In this document: in pieces, positions 6,302-21,504 of the stretch
Numbering within the stretch: the first letter of the stretch is position 1
Layout of the letters: every line of letters starts with the position of its first letter
NCBI GenBank assembly: GCA_030594925.1
Contig: JAUVEG010000001.1
Coordinates: 1 to 22,525, forward strand
Source: Gammaproteobacteria bacterium
Lineage (GTDB): Bacteria > Pseudomonadota > Gammaproteobacteria > Chromatiales > Chromatiaceae
Direction of reading: 5' to 3'
DNA: 22,525 nucleotides
The notes under the pieces: generated by a model
Seen by the model: the letters and a program-made list of their open reading frames with translations, nothing else
Database searches by the model: none
Told to the model about the DNA's origin: nothing
Program-made: the position numbers and the translations under genes

Positions 6302-7448
6302 AAGAGAGGATGCTGAGCAGGCGGATCCACAGTTTGGCGATGCCGTTGAGAATCATCGAGTCGCCGGTATAGATGGTGACATCCGCCTGTCCTCCCGCGC
6401 GTCGAAGTCCCTTGGTCTCATCGTCACTGAAGCGGATCATGACAGGGAATCGCTGTGCATCCCGCAGCCATCCGGTGGCGCTCTGCACCGAGGCGAGTTG
6501 ACCGGGCGTATCACTCGATTTCAGCTGCACGCCGTAACCGATGCTGACAACTTCGCCTTTGAAAATTCTCCCCGGCTTCACATCCAGAAGGATCTCGACC
6601 GGGTCGCCCTGTTTGATGTTGCCGATGCTGTTTTCACGCATATCCGCCTGAATCCAGACATCACCCGCCGAGACAAAGGTCATCAGCGGCTTGCCTGCCT
6701 GGGCATACTGGCCAACATCGATGTTGAGATTGGTAATACCTCCAAGGCCCGGTGCATAGAGTGTCGTGCGTGCAAGATCCAGGCGCGCTTTTCCCAGTGC
6801 TGCAAGCGCCGACTTGATCCTGGCGTTGTCGCTTCCCTCGGCGCCAAGCTGCTGCTTGGCTTTCTCCAGGTCAGCCCGGGCGCGTTCGGCATCAGCCTCG
6901 GCGGTGGTCAGCCCCGCACGCGCCTTGTCACCGTCTGACTCGGAGATCACACCCTTCTCTTCGAGCGGGAAAACCCGCTTTGCCTGCGCCTGTGCATTTT
7001 GCAGATTCGCCATTGCAGCTACCAGGGCCGCCTGTGCAGTCGATACTCCGGCAGTGCCTGCGCCAACATCCTGTCCGGCCAGCTCAAGCGCCGCCTCGGC
7101 GGATTTCACAGCCAGTTGATAGGTTTCAGGATCGATCTTCAGCAGCTCCTGTTCGGGTTTGACAACCGCATTCTCCTTGACATTGATTTTAGTGACCAGT
7201 CCCGAGACCTGGGGAACGACAGGCACGATGTAGCCATCGATGCGGGCAAGATCCGTGGTGGGTGTATAGCGGTCGGAAACCACGTACCAGAGAAAGAACA
7301 GCAGCGCCAGGCTGAGCACGAAATAGGTGATTGGCCGCAGCGGATCCATCTTGTTTGCAGTTTCAGCCTGCTTTTCAGCAGCTTTCTTTTCATCGACTTT
7401 GGCTGTGCCGTTGTCATCTGCGGGCGTCTTGATCTCTTTATTCGTCAT
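6291..7448 (-). CDS. HlyD/EmrA-type membrane fusion protein
   Basis: Periplasmic adaptor that links an inner-membrane pump to an outer-membrane channel. The 385 residues comprise a charged Lys/Ala-rich cytoplasmic N-terminus (1-34), one transmembrane helix (about 38-58), a first lipoyl half with IDGYIVPVVPQVSGLVTKI, a long Ala/Gln/Lys-rich coiled-coil hairpin (about 105-215), the second lipoyl half with LARTTLYAPGLGGITNL, and a beta-barrel (VWIQADMRENSIGNIKQGDPVEI). AAGAG lies about 10 nt before the ATG. It is first in a two-gene operon with the FUSC-like gene, overlapping it by 11 bp. A MITE occupies the upstream region, so the promoter may be partly element-derived. Confidence 0.88.
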   Translation of the reverse strand: MTNKEIKTPADDNGTAKVDEKKAAEKQAETANKMDPLRPITYFVLSLALLFFLWYVVSDRYTPTTDLARIDGYIVPVVPQVSGLVTKINVKENAVVKPEQELLKIDPETYQLAVKSAEAALELAGQDVGAGTAGVSTAQAALVAAMANLQNAQAQAKRVFPLEEKGVISESDGDKARAGLTTAEADAERARADLEKAKQQLGAEGSDNARIKSALAALGKARLDLARTTLYAPGLGGITNLNIDVGQYAQAGKPLMTFVSAGDVWIQADMRENSIGNIKQGDPVEILLDVKPGRIFKGEVVSIGYGVQLKSSDTPGQLASVQSATGWLRDAQRFPVMIRFSDDETKGLRRAGGQADVTIYTGDSMILNGIAKLWIRLLSILSYVY

Positions 7449-16850: not shown

Positions 16851-17150
16851 CTATGCATTACCCATATGCAAGTTTTTAAATACAGTTGCTGGATCAGCTT
16901 GAACTAATCTTAAAAGAATTCTGGCTGGCCCTGTTGGGTGTCGATGACCCTGCTCCCAGTTTTGGAGCGTGCGTATACTTACCCCAATTAATGCTGCAAA
17001 CCTTGATTGAGAGAAACCTGTGTTTTCACGGATGGCTTTAACATCCGGTTCTGGAAATTCAGTAACACGTGAGGCTTTGACCTCTTCGCGCCGAATTTTC
17101 CCTGCTTCTTCAATGCTGGCCATTAATTCATTGAAATGTTCATTTCTCAT
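16851..17150 (-). CDS. Xre-family antitoxin (HigA/NadS-like)
   Basis: A 99-residue protein with a central helix-turn-helix (about 45-75, FSQSRFAALIGVSIRTLQNW followed by EQGHRHPTGPA), typical of NadS/HigA antitoxins that neutralise RelE-fold toxins and repress their own operon. The start codon shares one base with the toxin stop (TAATG), giving translational coupling. Toxin-first gene order is the HigBA/RelE-NadS arrangement. It presumably binds the palindrome at 17478-17494. Confidence 0.88.
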   Translation of the reverse strand: MRNEHFNELMASIEEAGKIRREEVKASRVTEFPEPDVKAIRENTGFSQSRFAALIGVSIRTLQNWEQGHRHPTGPARILLRLVQADPATVFKNLHMGNA

Positions 17151-17467
17151 TATTTGAACTCCGAGGTTACGGCTTTTTTCAGCGTTGATAATTGATCTTT
17201 GGTTAAATTATCACTTTCATTCTTTGCATAGGCGTAGAGCATGAAAATTTGGTCATAATGTGTTGCCCAGTAATAAATTACCCGAATGCCGCCTCTCTTT
17301 CCTCTACCGCCGCTTTTCCAGCGAACTTTTCGAATGCCACCACTTCCCTGGATGAGATTCCCAGTATGAGGCATTTCCACTAACGCGCTTTGGAGAGACC
17401 TGTATTCGTCATCATTTAGCAGGGCAGTGATTATTTTTGTGAAAATGGATGTTTCGATGATGACCAT
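17150..17467 (-). CDS. RelE/HigB-like toxin
   Basis: A 105-residue protein with the RelE-fold pattern of the NadS-partner family: IETSIFTKIITALLNDDEYR, LVEMPHTGNLIQGSGGIRKV, RWKSGGRGKRGGIRVIYYW and FMLYAYAKNESDNLTKDQ. Members are usually ribosome-dependent mRNA endonucleases. The basic GRGKRGGIRVIYY strand carries the residues expected for RNA binding. It is the first gene of the pair. The predicted -10 box lies only 7 bp before the ATG, so the message may be leaderless. Confidence 0.88.
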   Translation of the reverse strand: MVIIETSIFTKIITALLNDDEYRSLQSALVEMPHTGNLIQGSGGIRKVRWKSGGRGKRGGIRVIYYWATHYDQIFMLYAYAKNESDNLTKDQLSTLKKAVTSEFK

Positions 17468-17630: not shown

Positions 17631-17660
17631 ATTGCTGTTATGAGCTCGTGGAGGTGGATT

Positions 17661-17999
17661 GTGTTTGCTACAAATGTAAGAAATCTCAAGAAGAATCCCT
17701 CTCTTGCACTTCGTCAGGCGGAGGAATCTCCCGTATTGGTTCTGAAAGGTGATGAGCCCAATGCCATTATCGTCCACCTGGATAAAACGGTGATCGATGC
17801 TGAACAGTCGATAAAGCCGTCATTGGCAGCGAGCCTGTTCAAGGATGGAACACTCTCACTCGGGGGCGCTACCCGCCTGAGCACTCTTTCGATGCAGGCA
17901 TTTCTTCAGTTTCTGGCTGAGTTGGGGATTGATGTTGTCCGTCCTGATGAGACAACGGGTCATGAGGCCAAAGATCTGAGTCGATGGCTCGCATCGTAA
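17661..17999 (+). CDS. Antitoxin, Phd-like N-terminus with UPF0175 domain
   Basis: A 112-residue protein. The N-terminus (FATNVRNLKKNPSLALRQAE then SPVLVLKGDEPNAIIVHLD) resembles Phd/YefM-type DNA-binding segments. The C-terminal part (about 55-110, SLAASLFKDGTLSLGGATRL then STLSMQAFLQFLAELGIDVV) is UPF0175, an antitoxin domain usually paired with DUF3368 PIN toxins. An ATG at 17640 would add seven residues, but GGAGG lies about 6 nt before the GTG at 17661, and the family normally begins just there, so GTG is chosen. It overlaps the toxin gene by 16 bp. Confidence 0.82.
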   Translation: MFATNVRNLKKNPSLALRQAEESPVLVLKGDEPNAIIVHLDKTVIDAEQSIKPSLAASLFKDGTLSLGGATRLSTLSMQAFLQFLAELGIDVVRPDETTGHEAKDLSRWLAS

Positions 18000-18460
18000 T
18001 TGCCGATGCGGGGCCGCTCATCGCCTTTGCCAGTATCGATGCACTTTCTGTTTTGCGGGGACTTTTTTCCGGCATCTATGTGACTGAATCGGTCAAGGAG
18101 TGTCAGGGCAAACCCGGCATCGATGCGCGACGCATTGAGGCAGCCGTTGACGAAGGTTGGTTGGTGATTTCCCATCAAGTTGCAGGCGCTGCGCCTCTAT
18201 CTCCCGCTCTGGGCGTCGGCGAAAGCGACTCGATACGTCTCGCCCTCGAGACCCGTGAAGAGTCGCTATTGATCGTCGATGATCGACTGGCCCGCCGATA
18301 TGCTTTGAAACAGGGCCTCAATATCGTCGGCACGGTTCGGTTGCTCGATTTAGCAGAACAGCGGTATCTGATCGATAGCGCAGAACAGTGTATTCGCGAG
18401 ATGGCGATTGTTGGCTACCGTATTTCGGTAGAGATCCTGAATCTGATCAGGTCAGAGTAG
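17984..18460 (+). CDS. DUF3368 PIN-domain toxin
   Basis: A 158-residue PIN-fold protein, expected to be a Mg2+-dependent RNase. The first acidic residue is in IVIADAGPLIAFA (Asp8), others are in LGVGESDSIRLALE and LLIVDDRLARRYA, giving the expected set of acidic residues. It follows the UPF0175 antitoxin with a 16-bp overlap, the standard order for this pair. It converges on the broken helicase gene, whose end is 57 bp away. Confidence 0.85.
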   Translation: MARIVIADAGPLIAFASIDALSVLRGLFSGIYVTESVKECQGKPGIDARRIEAAVDEGWLVISHQVAGAAPLSPALGVGESDSIRLALETREESLLIVDDRLARRYALKQGLNIVGTVRLLDLAEQRYLIDSAEQCIREMAIVGYRISVEILNLIRSE

Positions 18461-18517: not shown

Positions 18518-21047
18518 CTATGAGAATAGATCATCGACATCCCTCTCCTGATATCCCAGAGAGCGATAGCCGGCACGGCGTTTCTTGAACATTTTACTCA
18601 GCATGGGAACACTGCTGTCGAAGTAGTCGACAATACGCACTTCGTGCTTGCCGGGGTGGCGTCGGTGAAGTCGTCCGCTATATTGCACGAGGATTCCTCT
18701 CCATGAGACCGGCAGTGCCAGGAACAGGGTGTCCAGCCGGGCATCGTCGAACCCTTCGCCGATATATTTTCCGATTGCCAGAAGTAACCGTTCTTCATCT
18801 GCAGGGATAGATGCGAGTTGCTCTTCGACTTTGCGCTGCTCTTTTGCCGATCGACCACCGTGCAGTATGATGATGTGGCGAACAAAGCCTTTCAAGCGAT
18901 GATGAAGTCGTTCAAGGTGCTCCTTGCGTTCGGTCAATACAATCGGTGATCGACCCTCCTCCATGGCGTGCAGTACATCATCGATAATCATCTCGTTTCG
19001 TGCTTCATTGACAATGAGTTGGGCATACAATTTTTGTATCGTCGTGTTGGACTCAGTCAGATCAGTAGTAAAGGTGGTCTCGCGCACGACAAGTCGATAC
19101 TCGAATTCCTGTTTCGCCAGCTGACTGCGCGGATCGACTCGGAACCGTATGGGACCAAGCTGCATGCTGGTAATGGGGTGGCGCCCGTCGCGACGCTGTG
19201 GTGTGGCGGTCAGGCCAATGACATACTTTGCTTTGACTTCTGAGATGACACGCTCAAATGAGGCGGATGGCAGGTGATGACGTTGATGCGCACCATCCAT
19301 GGTGCGCACCCTTCGGGCGCTCTGAAGCGCGCCCAATTTCGCTCCCGGCGAAATTGTCATCGATGATCACCTGTCCATAGTCTGCGACGATATTGTCTAC
19401 GCTCTTCTTGCGGTACAGGCTCTGGATCATGGCGACGTCGACTTCTCCTGTCAGTTTGCGTTTTGCTCCTCCTCCGACGTGACCAATCGATTTCGCATCA
19501 CGGTCGAGAAAGATGCCGATCTGAGCCTGCCACTGTTTCAGCAGCGGCTTTGTGTGCACGATGACCAGGGTGCTGCACTTGCGTTCAGCAATCAGGTAAG
19601 TGCCAAGCACGGTTTTTCCAAAACCCGGCGGAGCCACGATAATGCCATTGTCGTGTTCGAGTAGGGTTTTTGTGGCTTGCTTCTGTGCGTTGCTCAGTTT
19701 ACCGGAGAAGTTGACTTCGATGGCGTCCCCCGGATTTCTCAAATCCTCGATTTCAAGTGTGCTGTGATGTTCGCTGAGCAGATCCTCTACATCGCCAACG
19801 CACCCTCGCGGCATGCTAATGTATTTCTCTTCATCCTTAGCGCAGGAGATGATGCGAGCTTCCTGGTGCGTTGAAAGCCGGAGGCTTTGCTTCCTATAAA
19901 ATTCAGGATTCTGAAATGCAGCCAGCCATTTGATCTGGCTGATCAAAGATGACGGCAGGCCTTTTTTTTCGATGAATAGACGCTGGGATAAAACCCCGTG
20001 AACCTGTTGCGGAACCGGTTCGGTAATTGGTGCATTTGTTGGTTCTCGTGATGGCGGTCTCAGCCACGGGCTGGCATCGTATGCATCACCCCCGGTCTCG
20101 GCGATTTGAAGTCCGGTTATTTGCCCACTTGCTAATGCTTCCCCTGCGATGCGTTCTACATCAGCTGTCGGGATATGGGGGAGGGTGCTGAGAAAATTCC
20201 ACTGATCTTTGTATGGCTCCAACTCGTCATTCAGGAACAGGGTGTTGCCTTTCTGTCGCAGCTTGAGTTGAAGCGGCAGCGCGATGAGATTGCCGAAACC
20301 GCCCTTGGGCATGGTGTCCTGGTTCGGGAACAGCCTGTCATAAGATGACATCCTCAGCTGGTGTCGTCTCGCCATAGTCTCCGTCAACAGATAGCTGCCC
20401 ATTCTCCTTGCTGTTGCGGCTGAAACCGGGGTATCGAAGAAGAACCAGACGTGTGCGCCGTTGCCTGAACGGGAACGCTCCAGGGCATAGGGGATATCGA
20501 CGCGCCTGCATGTCTCTGTAAAGGCCCGAACGTCGGCTTGCCAATCCTTCTTGTCAAAATCGGCAGCGAGAAACCAGCATGTCTCATCTTTCAGCATGGG
20601 GTAGACGCCGATGGTATGCTCACCCAGCAGGTGCTTTTCAATCACATCGGCTGTGACTGGCAGGAACTGCCGGTTGGGACACTCGCCGCATTTTACCGGC
20701 CCCTTATTGCATAACTCTGGCTTCCATTCATTTGCACAGACGGGTGAGTAGCCTATAGAGTCAGAGGTTTTTCCCTCCCACAACAGGGGGTAGACATCGT
20801 CCCGCCCGCGAAAAAGACGCATAAAAAGGGAGATCCTCTCCTCGCGAGTCAATTTGTTTGGTGTGGGAACAGGCGTGGTGGGAGTTGTGATGGTCTGGTT
20901 GCCATTCTCGCTATTGTGTTCAGCGAGGCGTTCTCTTAGAGACTGAAGCTTCGTCTCAGCTTGTTTCTGTTGTTTGCTGAGGTGAGTAAGCTCCTGCTCT
21001 ACTTCGTCGATTTCCTGAAGGATATTTTCGTGCTTAGTGGGTTCCAT
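18518..21047 (-). pseudogene. TOTE-type primase-helicase, broken at Walker B
   Basis: One ancestral gene now reads in two frames. The first part (21047 to 19254, 597 codons) has a coiled coil (about 8-45), four Cys of a likely zinc site (104, 113, 120, 123), an archaeo-eukaryotic primase domain with ADFD (162-165), SRSGNGAHVW and GNLIALPLQ, and a superfamily 2 helicase with Walker A APPGFGKT (472-479). The frame runs off after VIIDD (560-564). The helicase resumes in another frame at HHLPSASFERV and keeps GLTATPQRRDG and YSGRLHRRHPG, ending DVDDLFS. The break is a 76-nt insertion at 19281-19356. Helicase activity is probably lost; a free primase fragment could still be made. Related proteins are found in TOTE-type conflict systems. 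Confidence 0.8.
19281..19356. mobile_element. 76-nt three-hairpin insertion in the helicase gene
   Basis: Three adjacent hairpins: TGCGCACCAT-CC-ATGGTGCGCA (19287-19308, perfect 10 bp), GGGCGC-N8-GCGCCC (19315-19334), and CAATTTCGC-TCCCG-GCGAAATTG (19334-19356, perfect 9 bp). It replaces the two or three bases expected between the Walker B Asp codons and the following His-His, and shifts the frame. It has no coding capacity of its own. It resembles REP/BIME-like or very small MITE elements; no clear target duplication is visible. Confidence 0.7.
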
Positions 21048-21090: not shown

Positions 21091-21504
21091 TTAGATGTCT
21101 AATATTTCGACAAACCGTCGTGCTGTGATAATGGGTACACCACTGAATGTACGCAATGCCAATAAATCCCGCTTGTCACCGGTAACGAGATAGTGCGCCT
21201 GACTTACCTGCGCCATGGACAGTATTGGATTGTCATCAGGATCCGGCGACACATCTACAGTTGGTAGTGCTTCAAGGATTGTCGCCTGGTGGCGTAGGCC
21301 GTTTATCATGTTGCCAGCTTCAGCAGGTGTGAAGTATTGGTGTAGCTTCGGGTAGTGAGATACGCGACGAAATTCATCGAATTGCCACTCCGATGTAATC
21401 AATTCAAAACACTTCTTGCGCCAAGCCTGGTAGATCAGTGCTGGCGGTGTTGCCGTGGTAATGAGCGCTGCAATCAGTATGCCGGTGTCAAGCACAACGC
21501 GCAT
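21091..21504 (-). CDS. PIN-family toxin
   Basis: A 137-residue protein of the putative toxin-antitoxin PIN family: VVLDTGILIAALIT (Asp6), a central FDEFRRV motif, DVSPDPDDNPILSMA and HYLVTGDKRDLLAL, giving the acidic residues of a PIN RNase site. It follows the RHH antitoxin gene with a 5-bp gap, so the two form an operon. It lies 43 bp upstream of the broken primase-helicase on the same strand, so read-through into that gene is possible. Confidence 0.85.
   Translation of the reverse strand: MRVVLDTGILIAALITTATPPALIYQAWRKKCFELITSEWQFDEFRRVSHYPKLHQYFTPAEAGNMINGLRHQATILEALPTVDVSPDPDDNPILSMAQVSQAHYLVTGDKRDLLALRTFSGVPIITARRFVEILDI

Follow-up and report, generated by a model that had tools for sequence, protein, structure and literature searches.

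A hairpin element of an RtT-core family at one Walker B codon of AEP-TOTE primase-helicase genes in Gammaproteobacteria

Introduction

The hallmark of REP sequences is a GTAG tetranucleotide at the hairpin foot, while bypassing of the gene 60 type is marked by matched take-off and landing codons. Among repeats that live in protein genes, the nearest described kind is that of the Rickettsia palindromic elements (RPE), likened here by description; in the excerpt of PMC10969869 at hand, they are about 150 bp long, palindromic and placed inside protein genes, often in frame. For CsrA/RsmA, a SELEX consensus, RUACARGGAUGU, is given in the part of PMC7652899 consulted. RtT RNA (RF00391, the tyrT operon repeat) is described in the available portion of PMC4986893 as an RNA released from tRNA operon transcripts during tRNA processing. 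A search of the open-licence literature found nothing on RtT as a mobile element or inside a protein gene, and nothing on TOTE.

The locus considered here lies in a stretch of 22,525 nucleotides (the whole of which is called the window) from a gammaproteobacterium of the Chromatiaceae (assembly GCA_030594925.1, contig JAUVEG010000001.1). On its minus strand, at 19358-19283, a 76-nt hairpin element is found inside an AEP-TOTE primase-helicase gene.

The interrupted primase-helicase gene

The gene is recognised by its domain matches to AEP-TOTE (PF22548, E 7.2e-100), ResIII and Helicase_C, and falls into two parts, both taken from the list of open reading frames and from the domain search:

19359 to 21047, minus strand: N-terminal part, 563 aa
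18518 to 19282, minus strand: C-terminal part, 254 aa from RHHLPSASFERV, in the +1 frame

In the N-terminal part, the AEP-TOTE primase domain occupies aa 70-299 and is joined by the first half of RecA1, which includes Walker A and runs to the Walker B Asp; the open frame continues through the element as far as 19254. The C-terminal part holds what is left of RecA1, together with RecA2 (Helicase_C). At the insertion site intact relatives have GATGAATGCCACCAT or similar, that is, D-E-C-H-H, and DECHH is present in 114 of the 120 listed homologues of the N part, whereas of the other six, three are carriers (the window, P0002 and P0003) and three are proteins ending short of it. In the window the motif is broken after its D: along the minus strand VIIDD is followed by the hairpins and then by HHLPSASFERV in the +1 frame, which bears out the original prediction of a primase-helicase with its Walker B motif disrupted by a palindromic element. 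Comparison with intact TOTE homologues, which had been suggested there as a check, places the net gain of 73 nt (19284-19356) inside the Glu codon of DECHH, between its GA (19358-19357) and its A (19283), the helicase reading frame being shifted to +1.

That everything else in the helicase is conserved, as was also held, is nearly right. The window departs at 14 of the 187 columns that are at least 95% conserved (aa 70-563), and 8 of the 10 such changes in a 176-aa stretch shared with G002, a genome of the same genus, are identical there, so that they are mostly habits of the lineage rather than an effect of the insertion. PADLOC reported CRISPR-associated PrimPol models at the locus, and the AEP-TOTE gene is a candidate for a conflict or defence role by its name only. 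On either side of the helicase lie toxin-antitoxin genes, a RelE/NadS-like pair, a UPF0175 + DUF3368 pair and a gene for a PIN-domain toxin, which together make a small cluster (domain search):

16851 to 17467, minus strand: toxin-antitoxin cluster
17640 to 18460, plus strand: toxin-antitoxin cluster
21091 to 21504, minus strand: toxin-antitoxin cluster

Extent and fold of the element

The ends of the element were set from its family. When the insert and its flanks were searched in 38 genomes, its own included, partial matches in several of them began exactly at 19358, and the best-matching members stop at 19283. The earlier coordinates, 19281 to 19356, thus had the right length of 76 nt and a position two bases off. 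The features are as follows (R1 is the covariance model described in the next section):

19283 to 19358, minus strand: four-stem element of the RtT-core family (family ends, R1 match of 94 bits, comparison with intact homologues)
19334 to 19356, minus strand: hairpin 1, 9 bp, loop CGGGA (repeat search, covariation)
19318 to 19331, minus strand: hairpin 2, 5 bp in the family structure (repeat search, fold, covariation)
19309 to 19317, minus strand: hairpin 3, CCC-GAA-GGG, gCCCGaAGggC in RtT (RtT match, covariation)
19287 to 19308, minus strand: hairpin 4, 8 bp, loop AUGGAU, family loop A(N)GGA (repeat search, covariation)
19358 to 19360, minus strand: junction ATG (gATGACAATT), start of the listed C-terminal reading frame MTISPGAK... 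(ORF list)

On the minus strand the element reads GACAATTTCGCCGGGAGCGAAATTG, a short second hairpin, CCCGAAGGG, the strong last hairpin with its loop AUGGAU, and a terminal GCATCAA. The arms of the strong hairpins lie at 19348-19356/19334-19342, 19326-19334/19315-19323 and 19299-19308/19287-19296, to which the small CCC-GAA-GGG hairpin is added; hairpin 2 of the window copy contains one G.A mismatch, and a shifted GGGCGC/GCGCCC pairing folds better. The fold is far stronger than that of shuffled sequences (z -6.09 as RNA and -5.89 as DNA, with 0 of 200 shuffles equalling it in each). The end sequences GACAATT and GCATCAA are not inverted repeats, and any target duplication amounts to one A at most. 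Two ATG codons deserve attention, one at 19298-19300 in hairpin 4, in frame with the C-terminal half, and the other at the junction, an arrangement also seen in G122 and P0122.

A dispersed family with an RtT core

A pattern scan of genome contigs gave 100 stretches, most of whose record titles name Gammaproteobacteria; the other titles are a Burkholderiales MAG, Muproteobacteria, two 'Proteobacteria bacterium' MAGs and tubeworm endosymbionts. Eighteen copies, including those of the window, G142, G122 and G152, were aligned for the structure and for the covariance model R1. The family structure has 25 pairs, with 96.7% of the cells paired and 12 of the 25 pairs changed on both sides, and its covariation reaches 0.373 as against 0.120 after shuffling and 0.078 or less in slid controls. 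The window copy scores 94 bits over model positions 1-75 of 75, a match by construction, as it is one of the training rows.

The search for further copies that the original prediction had proposed came out differently with the two methods. With blastn (E <= 0.001) the query itself is the sole match in its own genome, whereas R1 (E up to 0.1, best 150 candidates per genome) finds 9 copies there and 2-11 copies in 11 of 12 genomes, G102 being the one without a match. Thus, the idea of the TOTE copy as the sole copy in its genome was rejected and holds for close copies only. In G142 and G122, blastn with E up to 1 likewise returned the TOTE copy alone, and repeated local transposition is harder to envisage with no close donor copy at hand.

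Many copies have TTCGA^ATCC-like surroundings; of the 151 collected, 71 show TTC followed by GA at the left side. ARAGORN was run on 46 loci for tRNA context, and at three loci read base by base the copy lies in a duplicate tRNA 3' end that follows an intact tRNA. A new tRNA intron was considered and rejected, as the T-loop copies inspected are such duplicate 3' ends downstream of intact tRNA genes. The copies of L028 and L125 lie near 5S rRNA ends. Rfam assigns the tRNA-linked units to RtT RNA with scores that equal or fall short of the cut-off, and the 45-bit gathering value is exceeded by the siblings L151 (68.9 bits) and L155 (46.3 bits). RtT exceeds the cut-off in 6 of the 38 genomes, the window's included (C235, 46.3 bits), and among 14 control genomes in E. 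coli only. Many sibling copies therefore form the core of Rfam RtT RNA in copies of tRNA 3' ends. For the window copy (L002) no match to RtT appears at E up to 1; it is without tRNA 3'-end flanks, its flanks encoding the helicase. The element is not the new REP/MITE class that had been suggested: its family is widespread in Gammaproteobacteria, and the copies linked to tRNAs are RtT RNA.

GGA stands in the hairpin 4 loop of 119 of 151 copies, as counted by a rough stem search, while the corresponding count for hairpin 1 carries no information, its loop having been part of the search pattern; ACA(N)GGA(N)GT occurs in 33 of 154 copies. A plasmid, phage or viral donor was rejected, since plasmid and phage DNA held no match to the G142 element at E 1e-5 and viral contigs gave 0 exact pattern matches. 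The Y1 transposase of the RAYT type (PF01797) was discarded as a marker of the element, being present in 12 of 12 genomes, among them G102, which has no R1 match. Some copies (G000:C137 and C109, L279 and L281, and G003:C26, L291) lie inside another palindromic repeat, gtcatt(g/a)cgagc...ccgcggc-like, and in L094 one element lies within the first hairpin loop of another.

Carriers at the same site and their phylogeny

The element is found at the same Walker B codon in the endosymbionts of the tubeworms Escarpia laminata and E. spicata (G142, L058, and G122, L093), in which the N parts of 585 codons and the C parts of 254 are both open. G152, from another genus, with a helicase 46% identical to the window's, has a 76-nt element at the same site. 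The four agree in orientation, nucleotide of insertion, length of 76 nt, net gain of 73 nt and +1 frame. Among proteins, P0002 and P0003 are N parts running into the element, and P0121 and P0122 are C parts with element-coded starts (18 starts were inspected among the 120 proteins listed, and a pattern was run over all 240). The window and P0121 share an Arg in place of the Cys after the Walker B Glu (RHH, with DECHH in 114 of 120 listed homologues), which means that the insertion most likely predates their split.

These findings bear on two alternatives. An assembly or binning artefact might be suspected in a genome of 330 contigs and 72% completeness such as the window's; it is refuted by the same junction in the independent genomes G142, G122 and G152, and its probability is practically nil. 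Homologues carrying the same segment in frame, named as a reservation in the original prediction, turned out in part: the segment is there, but likewise out of frame. The view first put forward, an ordinary one-off insertion that recently killed a dispensable gene, agrees with the broken frame, the decayed sister gene in G002 and the low copy number in the genome. A single recent event is contradicted by the identical insertions at the same nucleotide in other genera and by the proteins read into or out of the element, including P0121, which shares the insertion; the recurrence refutes 'one-off', and this explanation is quite unlikely.

In the family set, the element lies in TOTE in at least 4 of 210 genomes (best 4 candidates per genome scored), with a TOTE match in 40 of 194 genomes, and R1 run over 35 TOTE-related sources (the window and some overlapping loci included) returned the same four carriers, together with one weak antisense match in L168 (E 0.53). 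Among 369 genomes sampled from the class, there were 39 matches to the element or its flank; two of the 29 class-sample loci besides the window's had TOTE, both uninterrupted. In a tblastn search of the 34 class and family loci that match the element alone, TOTE was found only in L223 and L239, continuous across the motif in both; a further locus, L082, has only a distant helicase, 21-23% identical.

In the tree of N parts (87 rows) the carriers need 4 changes, at least 3 of them forced by starred branches, and in that of C parts (69 rows) 5 changes, at least 4 of them so forced. G039, G092 and G159, with DECHH, are placed among the carriers of genus g35, in which insert-bearing and insert-free alleles coexist. 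Placements are unsure, with long-branch warnings for G152 with G158 in both trees and for the window in the N tree, and a count of three changes may stand for a single gain with two losses. That one insertion was inherited vertically was rejected, since the trees give no single carrier clade, though losses are allowed and long branches blur the positions. Judged from these sequences, repeated gain, or gain with loss and recombination, would be needed. The elements of G122, G142 and G152 are identical to the window's at 71, 70 and 64 of 76 positions, respectively, and a non-TOTE copy, L056, is as near to it by alignment score as that of G142. Its presence at one and the same letter of the gene in several distantly related bacteria suggests repeated, targeted insertion and not a single accident.

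Target site and other places of insertion

Wherever it can be judged, the insertion site is GA^AT: in Walker B, by reference to intact homologues; in tRNA 3' ends (TTCGA^ATC), by reference to the intact tRNA of the same locus; and in a second TOTE gene of G135 (AATGA^ATGG), as read from the insert's own flanks. The element often lies inside other palindromes, such as the tRNA T-loop copies and intergenic hairpins. A GA^AT site is present in the Walker B codons of TOTE helicases, GAY GAA TGY CAY CAY; in nine intact TOTE genes, GAAT occurs 8 to 32 times, counting both strands, and ATGAATG 0 to 2 times. Repeated insertion in Walker B could be explained by a preference for a Walker B-like site, and is not easily accounted for by picking GAAT words at random; in G142 and G152 the site is preceded by GAC, so the heptamer ATGAATG is not strictly required.

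With moderate confidence we hold that the RtT-core repeat inserts repeatedly at GA^AT and truncates the helicase after the Walker B Asp, leaving the primase domain whole. A short, RNA-structured repeat of this family would insert at the site that the TOTE Walker B codons supply, either through repeated insertions or through insertion with loss and recombination. The first chain would then end just past the Walker B Asp, the Glu being replaced by Asp and an element-coded tail; the ATPase/helicase would be inactive, or at best work as two chains, with the AEP primase domain intact, and the C-terminal half could start at an ATG provided by the element or its junction.

Protein genes are entered elsewhere too. 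The second AEP-TOTE gene of G135 (L278, G135:C65:5000-10000) has two elements, at 6766-6840 on the plus and 6994-7063 on the minus strand, one in frame within the primase (AEP) domain and the other reversed; this gene is broken elsewhere and keeps its DECHH. In G159 (L261, G159:C1:2799882-2799959) the element is in frame in an HsdS-like ORF with two Methylase_S stretches. In G039 and G159 (L252, G039:C101:40919, and L254, G159:C1:720301) it makes up the first 24 or so codons of a c-type cytochrome gene, assigned by Pfam on the G039 copy; these genes start at an ATGACAA junction like the window's, with an ATGA stop/start overlap, behind GAAGGAGG. Such cases suggest that the element sequence is translated elsewhere in the family (HsdS-like, cytochrome c). 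As an observation apart, in L100 (uncultured Methylococcaceae, CAIOOA010000125.1) the element follows what appears from the translation to be the C-terminal part of an HsdS-like ORF.

Is the split gene still used?

A plain knock-out leads one to expect decay, against which both halves are open in all four DNA carriers and look constrained. Between G142 and G122, dN/dS is 0.205 for the N and 0.079 for the C part, the intact pair G039-G159 giving 0.223 and 0.078. The C parts of the window and P0121 differ at 2 conserved columns among 19 differences, with 8.6 expected, and those of G142 and G122 at 1 of 7 (3.2 expected, not significant). A control was provided by G002 (L290, G002:C259:1000-6000), whose TOTE gene is a pseudogene with an internal deletion, a TGA, GFEKT for GFGKT in Walker A and no match to the 3' part. 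Compared with the window, it shows 4 conserved-site differences of 30, against 11.9 expected; the same deficit in a pseudogene means that this test cannot separate a living gene from a recently dead one. The argument that constraint proves function was accordingly rejected, and continued function of the split gene cannot be claimed. The selective loss of a costly gene, as proposed originally, fits the decayed gene of G002, but it does not sit well with the coexistence of insert-bearing and insert-free alleles in g35. The elements of G142 and G122 differ at 1 of 76 sites, with a flanking synonymous divergence of 0.13-0.155, which leaves room for a recent arrival; it may be that the insertions postdate the splits compared.

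An unlikely, though not far-fetched, alternative is that of a split gene, in which the element creates two overlapping genes, one for the primase with half of RecA1 and another for the rest of the helicase, the second chain starting at the loop ATG GAT GGT or at the junction ATGACA, and the two cooperating or acting separately. It is favoured by the hairpin-4 ATG, which all four DNA carriers have in frame with the C part and which P0121 and P0122 retain (MDGAHQ, MEGAHQ), while ATGGA is found in this loop in 29 of 147 other copies (Fisher P 0.002, an optimistic value given that the carrier elements are related); the element, moreover, acts as a gene start for the cytochromes of G039 and G159. 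The loop ATG is buried in a stable hairpin, however, and the junction ATG is missing from G142 and G152. Broken conserved columns of the C part cluster near the cut, as if this end were free, in the window (3 of 12 against 4 of 102, Fisher P 0.025) and in P0121 (4 of 12 against 5 of 102, P 0.007), but not in P0122, G142 and G122. Furthermore, the Walker B Glu is lost from either chain and the cut falls in the core of the RecA fold.

Alternatively, the 73 nt might be skipped at expression, by RNA removal or by ribosome hopping, to give an intact helicase, and the position within one codon, GA^A, the constant 76 nt in all four DNA carriers, the two open and constrained halves and the copies that interrupt RNA-level hairpins, such as the tRNA T-loop copies, would all agree with this. 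Rfam nevertheless gives no intron match (with L002 at E up to 1, with the window at gathering), reading revealed no take-off and landing codons matched in the way of gene 60, the Arg for Cys in the window and P0121 leaves the intact motif seemingly unguarded, and the tRNA-linked copies inspected lie beside intact tRNAs, where splicing is not required. We consider it decidedly unlikely. The wider proposal is very unlikely: that RtT-core elements would be mobile intervening RNAs, the TOTE copy homing to the Walker B codon and being skipped or removed at expression, perhaps with CsrA-type control through the GGA loops, as a conditional on/off device of a defence helicase.

As read here, the RtT core recurs as a dispersed element whose insertion site is consistently GA^AT and which is also found in protein genes, whether in frame (HsdS-like), as a gene start (cytochrome c) or, repeatedly, at one catalytic codon of a defence-type helicase. 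RtT-like repeats thereby become testable as mobile elements, and the recurrent split of the TOTE helicase is a natural test of whether a broken catalytic core stays usable.

Comparison with known systems

REP/RAYT repeats and MITEs are, like the present element, short, non-autonomous, dispersed and palindromic; in contrast to REP, the 76 nt contain no GTAG (by reading), and in contrast to MITEs there are no terminal inverted repeats and the target duplication is of 1 nt at most. Group I and II introns are set apart by the absence of an Rfam match and by the mere 73 nt of the insert. The T4 gene 60 bypass and byp elements, as far as the sources consulted describe them, share the structured gap inside a coding sequence, but no matched take-off and landing codons were seen in the TOTE carrier. 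CsrA/RsmA hairpins, going by the same partial account of the SELEX work, resemble the element in the GGA of the loops of hairpins 1 and 4, a likeness that may serve as a lead only; the window loop, CCAUGGAUGG, lacks ACA, and the stems are longer than those of most SELEX hits.

RPE have their counterpart in the in-frame copies of the HsdS-like gene of G159 and the AEP domain of G135, although the element is about half as long and its Walker B copies in the window, G142, G122 and G152 are out of frame and confined to one nucleotide of one gene family. From RtT RNA the window copy differs in lying in a protein gene, with neither tRNA 3'-end flanks nor an RtT match; what the two have in common, as seen in the sibling units, is the core gCCCGaAGggC set in a T-loop-like GGTTCGA...AATCC.
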